DNA from: a virus
Virus record (IMG/VR): IMGVR_UViG_3300020202_000114
Coordinates: 1-44,539 of that record
DNA length: 44,539 nt
Direction: 5' to 3' (one strand)
Shown: positions 1 to 44,539 of the stretch, piece by piece
Position numbering within the stretch: the stretch's first letter is position 1
Layout of the letters: each line of letters begins with the position of its first letter
Translations under genes and position numbers: made by a program
The notes under the pieces: generated by a model
The model's database searches: none
The model's input: the letters and a program-made list of their open reading frames with translations, nothing else
What the model was told of the DNA's origin: nothing

Positions 1-99
1 TTCAGAATGTGCAAAGGACACGATGCTGACTGCTCTTGCGCTTCAAGGCTTGCTGATCGCGCCCTCACCTGGTTCCACGAACGGGAGAAGAGGAAATGA
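1..99 (+). CDS. C-terminal fragment of a small early protein (5' end missing)
   Basis: The frame is open from base 1 to a TGA at 97-99 and ends in ALTWFHEREKRK. The same 12-residue tail ends the 236-residue protein at 43496-44206, but the residues before it (CKGHDADCSCASRLADR) differ. This is therefore the tail of a different version of the gene at the same locus. The stop overlaps the ATG of the ASCH gene. Function is unknown. Confidence 0.55.
   Translation, partial: FRMCKGHDADCSCASRLADRALTWFHEREKRK
60..99 (+). repeat. 40-bp direct repeat, copy 1 (pair at 44167-44206)
   Basis: Forty identical bases encode the end of the upstream protein, the ribosome-binding sequence GGGAGAAGAGG and the overlapping ATGA. 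After it the two copies lead into different genes: ASCH here and a 77-codon gene at 44203. It marks the left border of an exchanged cassette. Confidence 0.85.
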
Positions 100-680
100 A
101 GGAACGCCCCATCTTATTCAGCGCCCCAATGGTCCGAGCCATCCTCGAAGGACGGAAGACGCAGACGCGGAGGGTTGTAAAAATATCGAATCCAGAAAAT
201 GCCATGCGGGTCGAGTTCTCATCGACGGATTTTGGCGTTTACCGATTTGACCTTTATTTTCCAACGCACGTCCGAAGCGAGACTTTTCCATGCCCCTACG
301 GCCAACCCGGAGATCGGCTTTGGGTGAGGGAGACTTGGCGTGACGGAATTTACGATGGTCCAATTTACCGTGCGGATGCTTGCAAAGTCACCGATGAACA
401 GCTTGAAGGGACTTGGAAGCCTTCAATTTTCATGCCCCGCTGGGCCTCCCGCATCACGCTCGAAATAACCGACGTGCGTGTGGAGAGGTTGCAGGAGATC
501 AGCGAAGAAGACGCAAAGGCGGAGGGGGTTCTCCGCTCTGGGCAAACCTTCAGACAAAGTTTCAATGATCTATGGGGAACCATCCACGCCGCCGACGGCC
601 CCAACGGATGGAGCGCTGATCCTTGGGTTTGGGTAATCGAATTTAAACAAATCGCACACACACGGGAGAAGAAGGGATGA
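96..680 (+). CDS. ASCH-domain protein
   Basis: This 194-residue protein matches the pattern of ASCH (PUA-like beta-barrel) proteins common in phages. It starts with KERPILFSAPMVRAILEGRK, then has QPGDRLWVRETW (about residues 69-80) and SIFMPRWASRITLEITDVRV, and ends in WVWVIEF. ASCH proteins are thought to bind RNA or modified nucleotides; no catalytic role is shown here. The start overlaps the previous stop (ATGA) behind GGGAGAAGAGG. Its last residues (AHTREKKG) are shared with the otherwise unrelated protein at 44203-44436. It occurs only on the alternative end branch, so it is probably a variable cassette. Confidence 0.85.
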   Translation: MKERPILFSAPMVRAILEGRKTQTRRVVKISNPENAMRVEFSSTDFGVYRFDLYFPTHVRSETFPCPYGQPGDRLWVRETWRDGIYDGPIYRADACKVTDEQLEGTWKPSIFMPRWASRITLEITDVRVERLQEISEEDAKAEGVLRSGQTFRQSFNDLWGTIHAADGPNGWSADPWVWVIEFKQIAHTREKKG

Positions 681-783
681 GTGAGCACCTTAAAAAGGAA
701 GTCATTCAAAACTACGAAGCTTACGGATGCGTCAAATGCCAGCGATGGCACTATGACGATGAAGACGTTTACTACGAGCATAT
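657..783 (+). repeat. 127-bp exact direct repeat, internal copy (pair at 44413-44539)
   Basis: These bases are identical to the last 127 bases of the window. One base before the match, A656 corresponds to G44412, and a few bases further back the sequences are unrelated. A length of exactly 127 is a common assembler k-mer, so this is best read as circular closure onto an internal position, not as a biological terminal repeat. Confidence 0.85.
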
Positions 784-877
784 CTGGAATCAATCCAAGC
801 ATGGAATAAGGACAGTATCGAGGGAAGAGAGGTTTATCAATTTTCTTTCGGATATGCGCGATGAGCTATCAAAGTAA
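677..877 (+). CDS. Small early protein with one CxxC
   Basis: Sixty-six residues, acidic and aromatic, with one Cys pair (CVKC, residues 18-21) and an HYDDEDVYYEH stretch. It follows AGAAGAAGGG and overlaps the previous stop (ATGA). One Cys pair could ligate metal only together with nearby His or by dimerisation. I do not recognise the family. Confidence 0.7.
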   Translation: MSEHLKKEVIQNYEAYGCVKCQRWHYDDEDVYYEHIWNQSKHGIRTVSREERFINFLSDMRDELSK

Positions 878-24241: not shown

Positions 24242-25205
24242 GAGCTTCTCCTATCTTGTCCATTATTTTGTCCGCATCAAACCAGACGCACGCTGGCATC
24301 TTTTCCTTGGTCGGGCACCCCCAATATTCGTGTGGGTTTTTATGGCATGGGGAGCAGTGGACTGGTGCTTGGAGCCAATAGGCGTTTTTAGCGCCCTGGA
24401 TATGATTCTCGTAAGAGGCTGCTGTTAAGAGCTGCAAGCAGGGGGCATCCCAGGAGTGGGCTATCAAGGGTAAACCCGTCTCCATAGAAACTGTCAAGTC
24501 TAGGTATTTCGTCATAAGGGCGACACTTCGGATGTTTCTTTTTCCGACCCAGGAGATTATTCTTTCTCCCTCGAATACTTGGTCTAGACAATGCTCGTCT
24601 CCAGTTAAAAATAGGATTGCGTTTGGATATTTCTCTAAAATCCTTCTTCCGATATTTTCGGCTTGAACGAATTTCTTATGGAGTGATGTGCCGGAGAGGT
24701 TTAAAAGGATTAGGTGAGAAGCGTTATACTTTGATTTGGTCTTTATGGCCTCGGCTTGCGCGAGTGCGTGGTCCTCGTTGCAGTAGTAGAGTTGTCCACG
24801 CGTACCGAGATACTTGTCTGGTAGATTACAGGCCTTGGTCATTACATCGTAATAAGTCATCTTTCCGAAGTTCTTACGTCTAAACTCGTCATTCCTGTAA
24901 TAGCGCGAATCATTCTCGTTGCAGCAGACGGCAAGCTCAATCGTGTAAATCAGGTTGAACGATATATCGTATTTTTCCTCGCAGTAGTCCCAATTCTTTC
25001 TTAGGCGATTGTCTGTCAGCTTTGTTACATCGACATATTGAAGGTCATCTATAAACGGGTTTCCCTGTAGGATTTGATAGCCCTGGTAGTTTGTTTCAAA
25101 TGTGATGTGGTCTACGCCGTAGTGATCTTTAATCAGTCGCGGAAGGTGAGACGCGTGGAGGACGTCTCCGAGGCCGCCGAATCGAGAGATGAAGCAAGTT
25201 TTCAA
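24228..25205 (-). CDS. Glycosyltransferase family 9, second copy
   Basis: 325 residues from a TTG overlapping the previous stop (TTGA), after GAGG. CFISRFGGLGDVLHASHLPR is the N-terminal GT9 signature. LILLNLSGTSLHKKFV and LTVSMETGLPLIAHSWDAPC are the C-terminal donor-site motifs. It differs clearly from the copy at 21497, so the two probably add different residues. Confidence 0.82.
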   Translation of the reverse strand: MKTCFISRFGGLGDVLHASHLPRLIKDHYGVDHITFETNYQGYQILQGNPFIDDLQYVDVTKLTDNRLRKNWDYCEEKYDISFNLIYTIELAVCCNENDSRYYRNDEFRRKNFGKMTYYDVMTKACNLPDKYLGTRGQLYYCNEDHALAQAEAIKTKSKYNASHLILLNLSGTSLHKKFVQAENIGRRILEKYPNAILFLTGDEHCLDQVFEGERIISWVGKRNIRSVALMTKYLDLTVSMETGLPLIAHSWDAPCLQLLTAASYENHIQGAKNAYWLQAPVHCSPCHKNPHEYWGCPTKEKMPACVWFDADKIMDKIGEALEHR

Positions 25206-26539
25206 ACGAGCCTCAACTCAGGTATCGGAACCAGGTAATAGCCTCCGCGCTCCTTATGGGACTTGGTCTTTGCCATTAACTCTTCGGCAAAGTTCCAAGC
25301 AAGTAATAGCATGAGATCCGGCTTCTCAAATTCAAAGTGGGAATTTCCCACAATGGGAAGTTTTGAGCCTGGGGTAAATTTATTCTGCTTTGCTGGGGTA
25401 TCGTCAACAATTGAATGTATATACTTTGTGTCTACATCTGTATAGTTCAGAAGGCTGATTCCTTTTGCTGATGCCCCATATGCCATTACCTTTTTTCCGC
25501 TTACATAGAAAAGCTCCATTAGTGTGCGGAACGTCTGGATTGACTTCTTTACTCTTTCCGTGAAGGCATCGTATGTATTCACATCGTAAAGATTGTGTTC
25601 TATTTCAAGGGTGCCAATTTCTTCCACTGACGACTCTTCCGGGTAAAAGTCTTTGGAGGTGTAGATACGAAGCGATCCACCGTGAATCGGTAGTCTCTCA
25701 ACTCTAAATATGGGTAGACCATGCTTATCAAATAAGCGTCTTAACGGACCGAGTAGAAAATATGAGAGATGCTCGTGGTAAATAGTGTCGAACTGGTTAT
25801 TTTCGATCAGGCTTAAGAGGTGGGGGACTTCGACGACGAAGATTCCGTTTGGTTTGAGCGCGATGTTAATGCCATTCAAAAAGTCGGTTAAGTCGTCTAC
25901 ATGAGCAAACACATTTGTTGCGGTAATAAAGTCTATTTGGCCTTCTCCGTACTCGCCCCATGGACGAAGGCGTTTGTAGTTCAAATCCTCGGCGAGTTCA
26001 CTGGACCAGAATCGAGGGATTACGGGAACGAGGTTGTCAACGCATTCGTCCTGTGTAAACTTATCCAAGTTATCAAAAAGGATATTGTTTAAATTCTTCG
26101 CGGGTTCGACACCCAAAATATAAAATCCGGCTCTTCTAAACTGCTTCAAAAGGCACCCATCATTGGAGGCGATATCTAGAACTCTCGGTCTTTGCTTCTC
26201 CACCCACGCTTCATTACTACCCAAAAACCACTCCGGTTTTGGACTTGGAGACCACATAGCCTTTAAAGTCAGGGCCATGTCATAACAGTGCTTTTTGAAT
26301 GTTTCCGAAACGGATGAGTGGTATGGGTAGTTGTTGTAAAGAACCGTGGGTTCCACCACGACACTTAGCTGAGATAAAAAACAGTCCTTACAGAGAAGAA
26401 CTTCGATTGGGTACTTCGGTTCTTCTTGTGTGCGCGAATCGAGAAGCGCGTTGCAGGCGGGGACTACGCCAAGATCAAGATATTTATGAAAGTTTGTGGA
26501 ACCGCAAATTCGGCAGGACTTGACGACCTTATAATCCAT
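25202..26539 (-). CDS. Sugar C-methyltransferase (three-domain, zinc-binding)
   Basis: 445 residues with the full three-part architecture: an N-terminal zinc site (C9, C12, C50, C53; CRIC and CKDC), a SAM domain (RVLDIASNDGCLLKQFRRAG, about 119-138), and the C-terminal domain (VMAYGASAKGISLLNY, then IVDDTPAKQNKFTPG and PDLMLLLAWNFAEEL). This is the pattern of TylC3/NovU-type C-methyltransferases acting on nucleotide-linked keto-deoxysugars. AAGGGA precedes the ATG. It is the first gene of the glycan island. Confidence 0.88.
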   Translation of the reverse strand: MDYKVVKSCRICGSTNFHKYLDLGVVPACNALLDSRTQEEPKYPIEVLLCKDCFLSQLSVVVEPTVLYNNYPYHSSVSETFKKHCYDMALTLKAMWSPSPKPEWFLGSNEAWVEKQRPRVLDIASNDGCLLKQFRRAGFYILGVEPAKNLNNILFDNLDKFTQDECVDNLVPVIPRFWSSELAEDLNYKRLRPWGEYGEGQIDFITATNVFAHVDDLTDFLNGINIALKPNGIFVVEVPHLLSLIENNQFDTIYHEHLSYFLLGPLRRLFDKHGLPIFRVERLPIHGGSLRIYTSKDFYPEESSVEEIGTLEIEHNLYDVNTYDAFTERVKKSIQTFRTLMELFYVSGKKVMAYGASAKGISLLNYTDVDTKYIHSIVDDTPAKQNKFTPGSKLPIVGNSHFEFEKPDLMLLLAWNFAEELMAKTKSHKERGGYYLVPIPELRLV

Positions 26540-39560: not shown

Positions 39561-39639
39561 GTGCGCGATCTGCATGCGTTTAACGTATGAAGTTATTTGC
39601 TGGGACTGTATTCGGGAGGGCTTGCGCCAATGGGGTTAG
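39553..39639 (+). CDS. 28-residue Cys-pair peptide
   Basis: From GTG inside the previous gene's end: CAIC (4-7) and CWDC (16-19) make a minimal zinc ribbon. GTGCGCG encodes its Cys-Ala. Overlaps the next gene by ten bases. Confidence 0.45.
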   Translation: MSECAICMRLTYEVICWDCIREGLRQWG

Positions 39640-40445
39640 TGGTTGAACCGATTCTTCAGTTTTTAAGTAAGGACGATTCAACGATTGATGATTGGATTGC
39701 GCGGCAGTATGGCTATCTCGCTGAATATTCCATGAAGCGCCAGTTCTCGAAAAAAGAAAACGGTCCTGTCTTAAGGTTCTCGGGGTGCGGCAAACGCGCA
39801 CGACAGATTGCCTATGAGTATCACGGCTTCCAGGCTAACGGTAAAACGCAAGATTCTCGCTCTAAGATTGTTTTCCTCTACGGCGATCTTCTTGAAGCTC
39901 TGATTGTCTCCCTCGCCAAAGCCGCCGGGGTTCAGATAACCGCCTGCGGTTTAGACCAAAAAAAGATCTCGCTCGAAATTGAGGGCGTTCAGATTAACGG
40001 GCACCCAGACGGACTCATTATTACCAATCCCATTCATACGTTTGAGTGCAAATCCATGTCCTCTTTCGGATATGGAGAGTTTGAGCGCGGCAATATCTCG
40101 CATGAATACTTGGTCCAAGTGAATCTCGGGATGGAAGCTCTGGGGCTTGATAGATGCGTCTTCGTTGCGATTGAAAAAGAGTCTGGGGTTATGAGTGAGC
40201 GCATCGTTCATAAGGACGAATCCATTATTGAGTGGGTAAGGCAGAATGTATCAAAAGTAATACATTCGACACCTGACAACCTTCCCGAGCGTTGCTTCAC
40301 TCCGAACGAAAAGGGCTTCTACCCGTGGCAGTGCGTCTATTGCAAGTTCTACAAAACCTGTCTCGTGGAACCCGGTCTCGCAAAGATTGAAGTCGTTAAA
40401 AACGCTAACAAATTAAAAGCCATTCAAGTGGAGGCCGCACTCTAA
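39630..40445 (+). CDS. Cas4/RecB-like PD-(D/E)XK nuclease
   Basis: 271 residues from an ATG nine bases after GGGAGGG. FSGCGKRARQIAYEY supplies the first Cys. GHPDGLI (about 132-138) and TFECKSM (about 145-151) are the PD-(D/E)XK core, followed by the QVNLGMEALG helix. CVYCKFYKTC supplies three more cysteines, so an iron-sulphur cluster as in Cas4 and AddB is expected. The likely role is end resection for recombination. No Cas1/Cas2 or CRISPR array is present. Confidence 0.85.
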   Translation: MGLVVEPILQFLSKDDSTIDDWIARQYGYLAEYSMKRQFSKKENGPVLRFSGCGKRARQIAYEYHGFQANGKTQDSRSKIVFLYGDLLEALIVSLAKAAGVQITACGLDQKKISLEIEGVQINGHPDGLIITNPIHTFECKSMSSFGYGEFERGNISHEYLVQVNLGMEALGLDRCVFVAIEKESGVMSERIVHKDESIIEWVRQNVSKVIHSTPDNLPERCFTPNEKGFYPWQCVYCKFYKTCLVEPGLAKIEVVKNANKLKAIQVEAAL

Positions 40446-42840: not shown

Positions 42841-42915
42841 ATGATCTACGTCTTCTCCTGGCTTCTGGTGTGCGCGGTTATTCTTATGTGGTGGAAAGGA
42901 AAGTCGCGCACATGA
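42841..42915 (+). CDS. 24-residue membrane peptide
   Basis: MIYVFSWLLVCAVILMWWKG then KSRT. One hydrophobic helix. Its codons carry GTGCGCG and, near the end, CGCGCAC. Overlaps the next gene by four bases. Confidence 0.45.
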   Translation: MIYVFSWLLVCAVILMWWKGKSRT

Positions 42916-43334
42916 AAAAGAAAAAGGTAAAGAAGCTCTCCCAGACCAAGCTTTTAAGAAAATACGAACCAGAGTTAAGAGACATCATCATTAAAAGAGA
43001 CGGGAATAAGTGCGTGATAGCTGGGTACAGGCATAAGTGTAGTGCGCGGCTTGTGGCTGATCATAGGCCTTCGGGAAGGAAGAACCATAGCACCTTCCTA
43101 GATCCGCGCAATCTTTCCACGGTCTGCGCCACGGCCAATATGCTCGCCCAATGGGACGATTTTATTAGTGCGGCAATCAGGGTTGAGGTGATGCAAAGAG
43201 AGGGTGCCGGAATCATCGAGGAATTAGAGAAGCTTTCGCGCACTCCTAAAAAGTGGGATGAGCTTTCAATTCGCGCACACCTGGACAACTGTAAACGTTA
43301 TTTTTTGAAGAATAAATCTGGGTGCCCAGAATGA
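42912..43334 (+). CDS. NinG/HNH-like recombination protein
   Basis: 140 residues from an ATG with AAGGAAAG eight bases upstream. IIIKRDGNKCVIAGYRHKCS, ARLVADHRPSGRKNHSTFLD, PRNLSTVC follow the beta-beta-alpha-metal order with DH and the Asn of HNH nucleases. The C-terminus (MQREGAGIIEELEKLSRTPK, then CKRYF) is close to lambda NinG (Rap). NinG-type proteins resolve or process recombination intermediates. The last His of canonical HNH is not obvious. Confidence 0.7.
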   Translation: MKKKKVKKLSQTKLLRKYEPELRDIIIKRDGNKCVIAGYRHKCSARLVADHRPSGRKNHSTFLDPRNLSTVCATANMLAQWDDFISAAIRVEVMQREGAGIIEELEKLSRTPKKWDELSIRAHLDNCKRYFLKNKSGCPE

Positions 43335-43495: not shown

Positions 43496-44206
43496 GTGAC
43501 CGCACCTATGAATAAAGAAAAAGATTGCTCGATCTGTAACCCCAAACCAGAAGCTCCCGAGGCACCTATGACCAAATACCACGAATTAACGGAAAGGATT
43601 TGGAGATCAGATGACGATACTTACAATTTTAAGCATCGTCTTGACTCCCTCATCCGAGAATACATTGAGGGGTGCGCGGAGGAAATAAGAGAAAGTTACG
43701 GACTACAAGCTGGAAGTCAACTTGTCGGTAGAAGATACCTTCATCAAATCCTCGGTCTCTCAACAGAATCTTTAAGCGCCGCAGGCACGCCTTGTGAGAA
43801 TTGTGATAGAAGAGAGCCCGGTGCTTCTATTTTCTTAACAGGAAGCAAAGATATTAAACAATCTAAGTGCATTAAATGCGGCAAAAATTATTCTGACATC
43901 TTTAAACCACAAGGAGCCAATCCAGTGAGTGAGAAAGAGTGGTGCTCGCACTACAAATTGAATGAGAGAACGAACTGGTACGAAAGAGAAGCCAATGTTG
44001 GAAGTGGCGTATTTAATTGTGTTGTCCATCATCAGGATAAGTTTTGTGCAGTTTGCGGAAAAGAAAAGCCGCGCACCCCAACCGAACAAGAGGAGCTTGC
44101 AGCTAAGTTTAGAGAGTTTCTGCCTTACGCTGGAAGTGACATGAACCTAATGAGCCTTGCTGAAATCGCCCTCACCTGGTTCCACGAACGGGAGAAGAGG
44201 AAATGA
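43496..44206 (+). CDS. Multi-zinc-finger early protein
   Basis: 236 residues from GTG; ATG at 43508 or at 43568 (GAGG upstream) are alternatives. Cys pairs: CSIC, CENC, CIKC and CAVC, with CSHY in between, around helical segments (KHRLDSLIREYIEGCAEEIR, EQEELAAKFREFL). Probably binds several zinc ions. Its last 12 residues are shared with the fragment at the left end of the window. Confidence 0.6.
   Translation: MTAPMNKEKDCSICNPKPEAPEAPMTKYHELTERIWRSDDDTYNFKHRLDSLIREYIEGCAEEIRESYGLQAGSQLVGRRYLHQILGLSTESLSAAGTPCENCDRREPGASIFLTGSKDIKQSKCIKCGKNYSDIFKPQGANPVSEKEWCSHYKLNERTNWYEREANVGSGVFNCVVHHQDKFCAVCGKEKPRTPTEQEELAAKFREFLPYAGSDMNLMSLAEIALTWFHEREKRK
44167..44206 (+). repeat. 40-bp direct repeat, copy 2 (pair at 60-99)
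   Basis: Identical to 60-99, ending in the stop of the multi-zinc protein and the start of the 77-codon gene. Left border of the variable cassette. Confidence 0.85.
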
Positions 44207-44436
44207 GCGAAGACGTTTGCTTTCTAATCACAGTCTTAAATGAAGATCGACTTCTGAGGTGCGCGTTAAAGGTTAAACGCGATTCTTTGAGCGGTGACGT
44301 AATTGATTACCCAATGGAACCAGAAAATCGAGAGCAGCTTTATAAGCTCTTACCGCTGCACGTTCAGTCGTGCGGCCCAATTGTCGATGTTGAGGGAATC
44401 TTTGAGGTCGCGCACACACGGGAGAAGAAGGGATGA
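44203..44436 (+). CDS. Small early protein, alternative cassette gene
   Basis: 77 residues: VCFLITVLNEDRLLRCALKV, VIDYPMEPENREQLYKLLPL, GPIVDVEGIFEVAHTREKKG. A small alpha/beta fold of unknown role. It occupies the position that the ASCH gene holds on the other branch, and the two share only start-site bases and the last residues. Confidence 0.6.
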   Translation: MSEDVCFLITVLNEDRLLRCALKVKRDSLSGDVIDYPMEPENREQLYKLLPLHVQSCGPIVDVEGIFEVAHTREKKG

Positions 44437-44539
44437 GTGAGCACCTTAAAAAGGAAGTCATTCAAAACTACGAAGCTTACGGATGCGTCAAATGCCAGCG
44501 ATGGCACTATGACGATGAAGACGTTTACTACGAGCATAT
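44413..44539 (+). repeat. 127-bp exact direct repeat, terminal copy
   Basis: Identical to 657-783; see that entry. It shows how the sequence closes into a circle. Confidence 0.85.
44433..44539 (+). CDS. 5' part of the gene at 677-877 (repeat copy)
   Basis: The first 35 codons of the same small CxxC protein, cut off by the window end. Not an extra gene in the circular molecule. Confidence 0.8.
   Translation, partial: MSEHLKKEVIQNYEAYGCVKCQRWHYDDEDVYYEH

Follow-up and report, generated by a model that had tools for sequence, protein, structure and literature searches.

The window, the whole 44,539-nucleotide stretch of viral DNA analyzed here, most likely comprises an entire phage genome with a circular map (43,756 bp), to which an alternative branch of 656 bp is attached. 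We consider it probable that branch and circle are two alleles of one gene slot, arising from a linker-bounded exchange of cassettes in a phage population. What the metagenome assembler caught is ordinary phage mosaicism, or gene shuffling.

Assembly geometry and the circular path

The first-pass annotation had described a 127-bp repeat and a 40-bp repeat, and both proved exact: positions 657-783 are identical to 44413-44539, and 60-99 to 44167-44206. The longest repeat expected by chance in 44.5 kb is ~15 bp by our own estimate, and no other duplication was found elsewhere in the window. If one mismatch is allowed at 656 (A/G), the right-hand match starts at 652/44408. On the left, 46-99 and 44153-44206 are 93% identical, with four mismatches, all within 46-59. 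The paths diverge to the left of base 60 (10 of 14 positions identical at 46-59 and 14 of 45 at 1-45, in an ungapped comparison), so the difference between them has no boundary there.

Relatives were gathered via terminase, at 66-72% identity. Two of them, G010 (IMGVR_UViG_3300021057_000017; 44,248 bp) and G006 (44,919 bp), with terminases ~70% identical to that of the window, have terminal overlaps of exactly 127 bp and form circles of 44,121 and 44,792 bp. Removal of bases 1-656 leaves the window with a 127-bp terminal overlap too, and positions 657-44539 close into a circle of similar size, 43,756 bp. This circle carries the 77-codon gene, and bases 1-656 carry a complete ASCH gene. The word at 657-783 recurs at the contig end over exactly 127 bp, as expected for an assembler's k; word lengths commonly used by SPAdes include 127. 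The length is most simply that of the assembler's word, technical rather than biological, and the 127-bp overlaps are the basis for deducing both assembler and word length. Bases 1-656 are best read as an additional entrance to the 127-mer that both paths share, and the contig as a circle to which they form a tail. Working at a word length of 127, a short-read de Bruijn assembler (or a tool retaining 127-bp overlaps) would have started in the branch, entered the node at 657-783, rounded the circle, and halted on meeting the node again at 44413-44539. Read this way, the right extent of the repeat (783) is biologically meaningless, and base 1 marks the place where the assembler stopped rather than a border. 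The branch rejoins the circle on the right; on the left the two have only 40 bp in common before they diverge.

The record has no repeat at its extreme ends and yet most likely contains an entire genome, and bases 1-656 should not be annotated in the same genome as 44203-44436. Exact-match scans of IMG/VR, from which near records may have been excluded, with the left linker, bases in 1-60, and the right linker returned no second record with either junction. A host search of genome contigs, using the terminase alignment and a conserved 316-amino-acid late protein, gave no match. Among the late structural genes, a 445-amino-acid C-methyltransferase-type protein (Methyltransf_13/23/14; 25202-26539, minus strand) is kept in 7 of the 8 relatives compared, at 41 to 53% identity.

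Two cassettes on a common linker

Between the repeats, one path carries a 194-codon open reading frame (96-680, plus strand) and the other a 77-codon frame (44203-44436, plus strand), an ASCH gene and an unrelated gene, as the first-pass annotation had proposed. The ASCH protein matched phrog_874 with an E value of 7.8e-72 and the Pfam ASCH family at 6.8e-4 (20.7 bits, just below the curated cutoff of 21.2); no sequence match was found in the PDB. Hundreds of phages encode full-length relatives, in many cases at 40 to 52% identity; no ASCH gene was found in the 12 terminase relatives, several of which are partial. Salinibacter ruber M8 phages account for 184 of the 340 phage records with an ASCH relative and may offer a natural data set for cassette variation. 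The 77-amino-acid protein matched nothing in Pfam, PHROGs, PADLOC, phage records, or IMG/VR. The GC content is 53.8% in the ASCH segment versus 45.8% in the 77-amino-acid gene.

The left linker lies at 60-99 in the ASCH branch and at 44167-44206 on the circular path (both on the plus strand). It comprises the last codons of the upstream gene, the Shine-Dalgarno (SD) sequence GGGAGAAGAGGAA, and an ATGA overlap. On the circular path the upstream gene encodes a zinc-ribbon-like protein of 236 amino acids (43496-44206, plus strand) with homologues in G010 and G006. In the branch, only the 3′ end of an alternative upstream gene is present (1-99, plus strand), with a frame open until the stop at 97-99 and a product ending in ADRALTWFHEREKRK. 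The last 12 codons of this partial gene are common to both, and both proteins end in ALTWFHEREKRK because the SD sequence and ATGA of the next gene sit within those codons.

The right linker has the same construction. In the ASCH branch (652-680, plus strand; TCGCACACACACGGGAGAAGAAGGGATGA) it begins at ASCH residue 186 and encodes the tail AHTREKKG with its stop, an SD sequence, and the start of the next gene; its counterpart on the circular path (44408-44436, plus strand; TCGCGCACACACGGGAGAAGAAGGGATGA) includes the motif CGCGCAC. The ASCH protein and the 77-amino-acid protein share the tail AHTREKKG. That the proteins share tails is thus a side effect of sharing a translation-coupling linker. 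Neither these tails nor the divergence left of base 60 figured in the first-pass annotation. Similar endings (KERG, KERR, and EGK) occur elsewhere in the array. NTGA is found at 25 of 40 early starts and ATGA at both junctions of the slot; the 77-amino-acid gene has an SD sequence and ATGA at both ends.

The 80 ASCH homologues compared end near query residue 186 (median, 3.5 residues beyond it), and the shared DNA begins at 652, within the codon for that residue; the ASCH core is therefore complete and is followed by a linker-coded tail. In 42 of the 80 homologues the stop overlaps the next start as ATGA or GTGA. Because the linker starts where ASCH homologues end, the downstream gene, which encodes 66 amino acids (677-877, plus strand) and is common to both paths, retains its ribosome binding site with either cassette, through SD and ATGA coupling. 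Database searches found no relatives of the 66-amino-acid protein; a defense-system reading was set aside, PADLOC having given only marginal matches, to this protein. A YopX-family gene lies in the same cassette chain at 1310-1729 (Pfam, 8e-19).

The variable array begins on its left, 0.9 kb upstream of the slot, with a NinG/Rap-like HNH endonuclease gene (42909-43334, plus strand). The general HNH family phrog_589 (2e-8) outscores the NinG/Rap family phrog_5034 (5e-6; residues 3 to 125, nearly full length), and the G010 counterpart matches the same families. The slot itself is hypervariable in relatives: the small genes that follow the homologous upstream gene in G010 and in G006 are not the same.

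We favor the reading that these paths are two variants because the 127-bp node is exact, relatives circularize with the same overlap, and imperfect homology is found at both borders. The NinG/Rap-like gene with its ATGA chain, the contrast in GC content, and the varying small genes of G010 and G006 also support an exchange. The slot would be one position in a ninR-like chain of small, translationally coupled early genes, each cassette being a whole reading frame joined to a shared linker, which encodes a few C-terminal residues, an SD sequence, and the ATGA by which the next gene overlaps. The cassettes were probably exchanged by homologous recombination, possibly over short homologies, within the linkers or flanking DNA, which would keep the downstream gene translatable. 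We infer the coexistence of both alleles in one population, and likewise the recombination route, linkage, and frequency. The first-pass annotation had seen, as a probable reading, two genomes of one population differing by one swapped gene. Two variants is the best reading, but "one swapped gene" is unproven, since differences in the ASCH branch are already present among the final codons of the upstream gene, and the point where the branch attaches on its left lies outside the contig. A simple two-allele bubble is likewise unproven, as no rejoining with the circle is seen on the left within the contig. The branch may belong to a close strain or to a more distant phage sharing the right side only.

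The GTGCGCG motif and alternative readings

GTGCGCG occurs 53 times in the circle, against 4.2 copies expected from dinucleotides (12.7-fold) and 7.6 from tetranucleotides. It ranks first among 7-mers both in the window and in G010 (23 copies versus 3.5 expected) but in none of the seven other relatives examined. Its density in the early region, where 13 kb holds 36 copies, is ~5-fold that of the late region. It falls between -40 and +3 at 10 of the 40 early starts, with 4.1 expected (P = 0.006 for a zone chosen post hoc). In a symmetric test, its excess within 20 nucleotides of gene ends was not significant (P = 0.08). It is strand polarized, with all copies on the plus strand at 35.0-39.6 kb and most on the minus strand from 39.8 kb through 2.9 kb. 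Only 3 of 1,000 shuffles gave a layout as strong in the window; the layout in G010 is similar, weaker, and only suggestive (92 of 1,000). This polarization argues for a role at the level of DNA over one at the level of transcripts. A literature search on GTGCGCG in phages found nothing relevant. The motif itself is real.

At the right border the sequence is indeed TCGC(A/G)CACACAC, as had been claimed. The further claim that the cassettes are bordered by the motif holds for the right border only: the left border lacks the motif, and the ASCH allele carries a one-base variant. From the early-region density, we estimate a ~10 to 17% chance that one of two borders lies within a few bases of GTGCGCG, so the position of the border does not establish a role for the motif in exchange; its placement there is probably incidental. 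It would add to the exchange model if GTGCGCG were a dedicated recombination site or hot spot (Chi-like, or a boundary element) and had determined the right border. The over-representation of the motif, its rank in G010, its presence at 10 of 40 early junctions, and its strand bias along the circle all favor such a role, which we nonetheless regard as improbable: just one of the two borders has the motif, with the ASCH allele one base off, the gene-end excess is not significant, shared homology alone accounts for the border, and only one exchange is known, with no second. Slightly more doubtful still is the fuller proposal that the phage owns a Chi-like or boundary DNA signal, the 53 strand-polarized copies of GTGCGCG, which forms part of gene linkers and steers the exchange of cassettes.

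Other readings dispense with a pair of alleles. The ASCH branch could come from a distinct, more distant phage that shares only a short recent segment, the linker and the region of the 66-amino-acid gene. Divergence that goes on left of base 60 and a GC content 8 points higher in the ASCH segment fit this account, and sharing past the 127 bp is unmeasurable because the contig ends there; the upstream C terminus and linker are also common, however (40 bp exact, 93% over 54), which makes the left context homologous, and we hold this account to be unlikely. Were both cassettes instead in tandem on one linear molecule, with a duplicated linker and 66-amino-acid gene segment, the contig end would lie inside a repeat, as it does. 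Such an arrangement is very improbable given that the repeat length equals exactly the terminal overlap of two circular relatives, that the window minus the branch measures 43.8 kb, in line with the relatives' circles of 44.1 to 44.8 kb, and that the window has no other duplication. The least credible reading, which we give hardly any weight, is that bases 1-656 were artificially joined to the phage as an assembly or library chimera. The branch sits at the contig start, where chimeras can arise, but the linker is fused in frame at the natural end of ASCH, and the SD sequence and ATGA are kept at both ends. Both junctions are also flanked by imperfect homology (A/G at 656; four mismatches in 46-59), which a chimera is not expected to yield and which favors a real exchange.

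Comparison with lambdoid phages and phage mosaics

Cassette exchange between linkers, as we read the window, shows cleanly and in a natural case how genes can be swapped in phage operons with translation of the next gene intact: the exchanged unit stops where the protein core naturally ends, and the tail, the ribosome binding site, and the overlapping start come from a short linker. The ASCH domain links the protein of the window to phage ASCH proteins (phrog_874) and to the characterized ASCH-domain relative, the Escherichia coli amidohydrolase YqfB (PMC9599836). The protein of the window has 194 amino acids versus ~103 for YqfB; any RNA binding or ac4C amidohydrolase activity of it would be putative.

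In the lambdoid nin region, genes are tightly packed with ATGA overlaps (PMC8022706), and ninR was described as a chain of interlinked genes by Kroger and Hobom in 1982, as cited in the same paper. The window resembles ninR in its packed small early genes, ATGA overlaps, and embedded ribosome binding sites, as well as in its NinG/Rap-like endonuclease gene and in cassettes that vary between relatives. It differs in that its linkers often contain CGCGCAC/GTGCGCG. Its terminase is at most ~37% identical to that of any named phage, and none of orf/ninB, ninE, ninH, or the Q antiterminator was seen among the proteins scanned.

Experimental and comparative studies show that phage mosaics can arise by homologous recombination across short or diverged stretches, leaving above-background identity at the borders (PMC3945230, PMC2327257). 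The borders in the window look like such homologous-recombination borders. A Cas4-type/RecE-like exonuclease is encoded at 39597-40445. As in temperate-phage mosaicism (PMC2327257, PMC3945230), unrelated segments are flanked by short stretches of above-background identity, or "HR traces"; unlike the published temperate-phage mosaics, the window presents two alleles within one metagenome contig.
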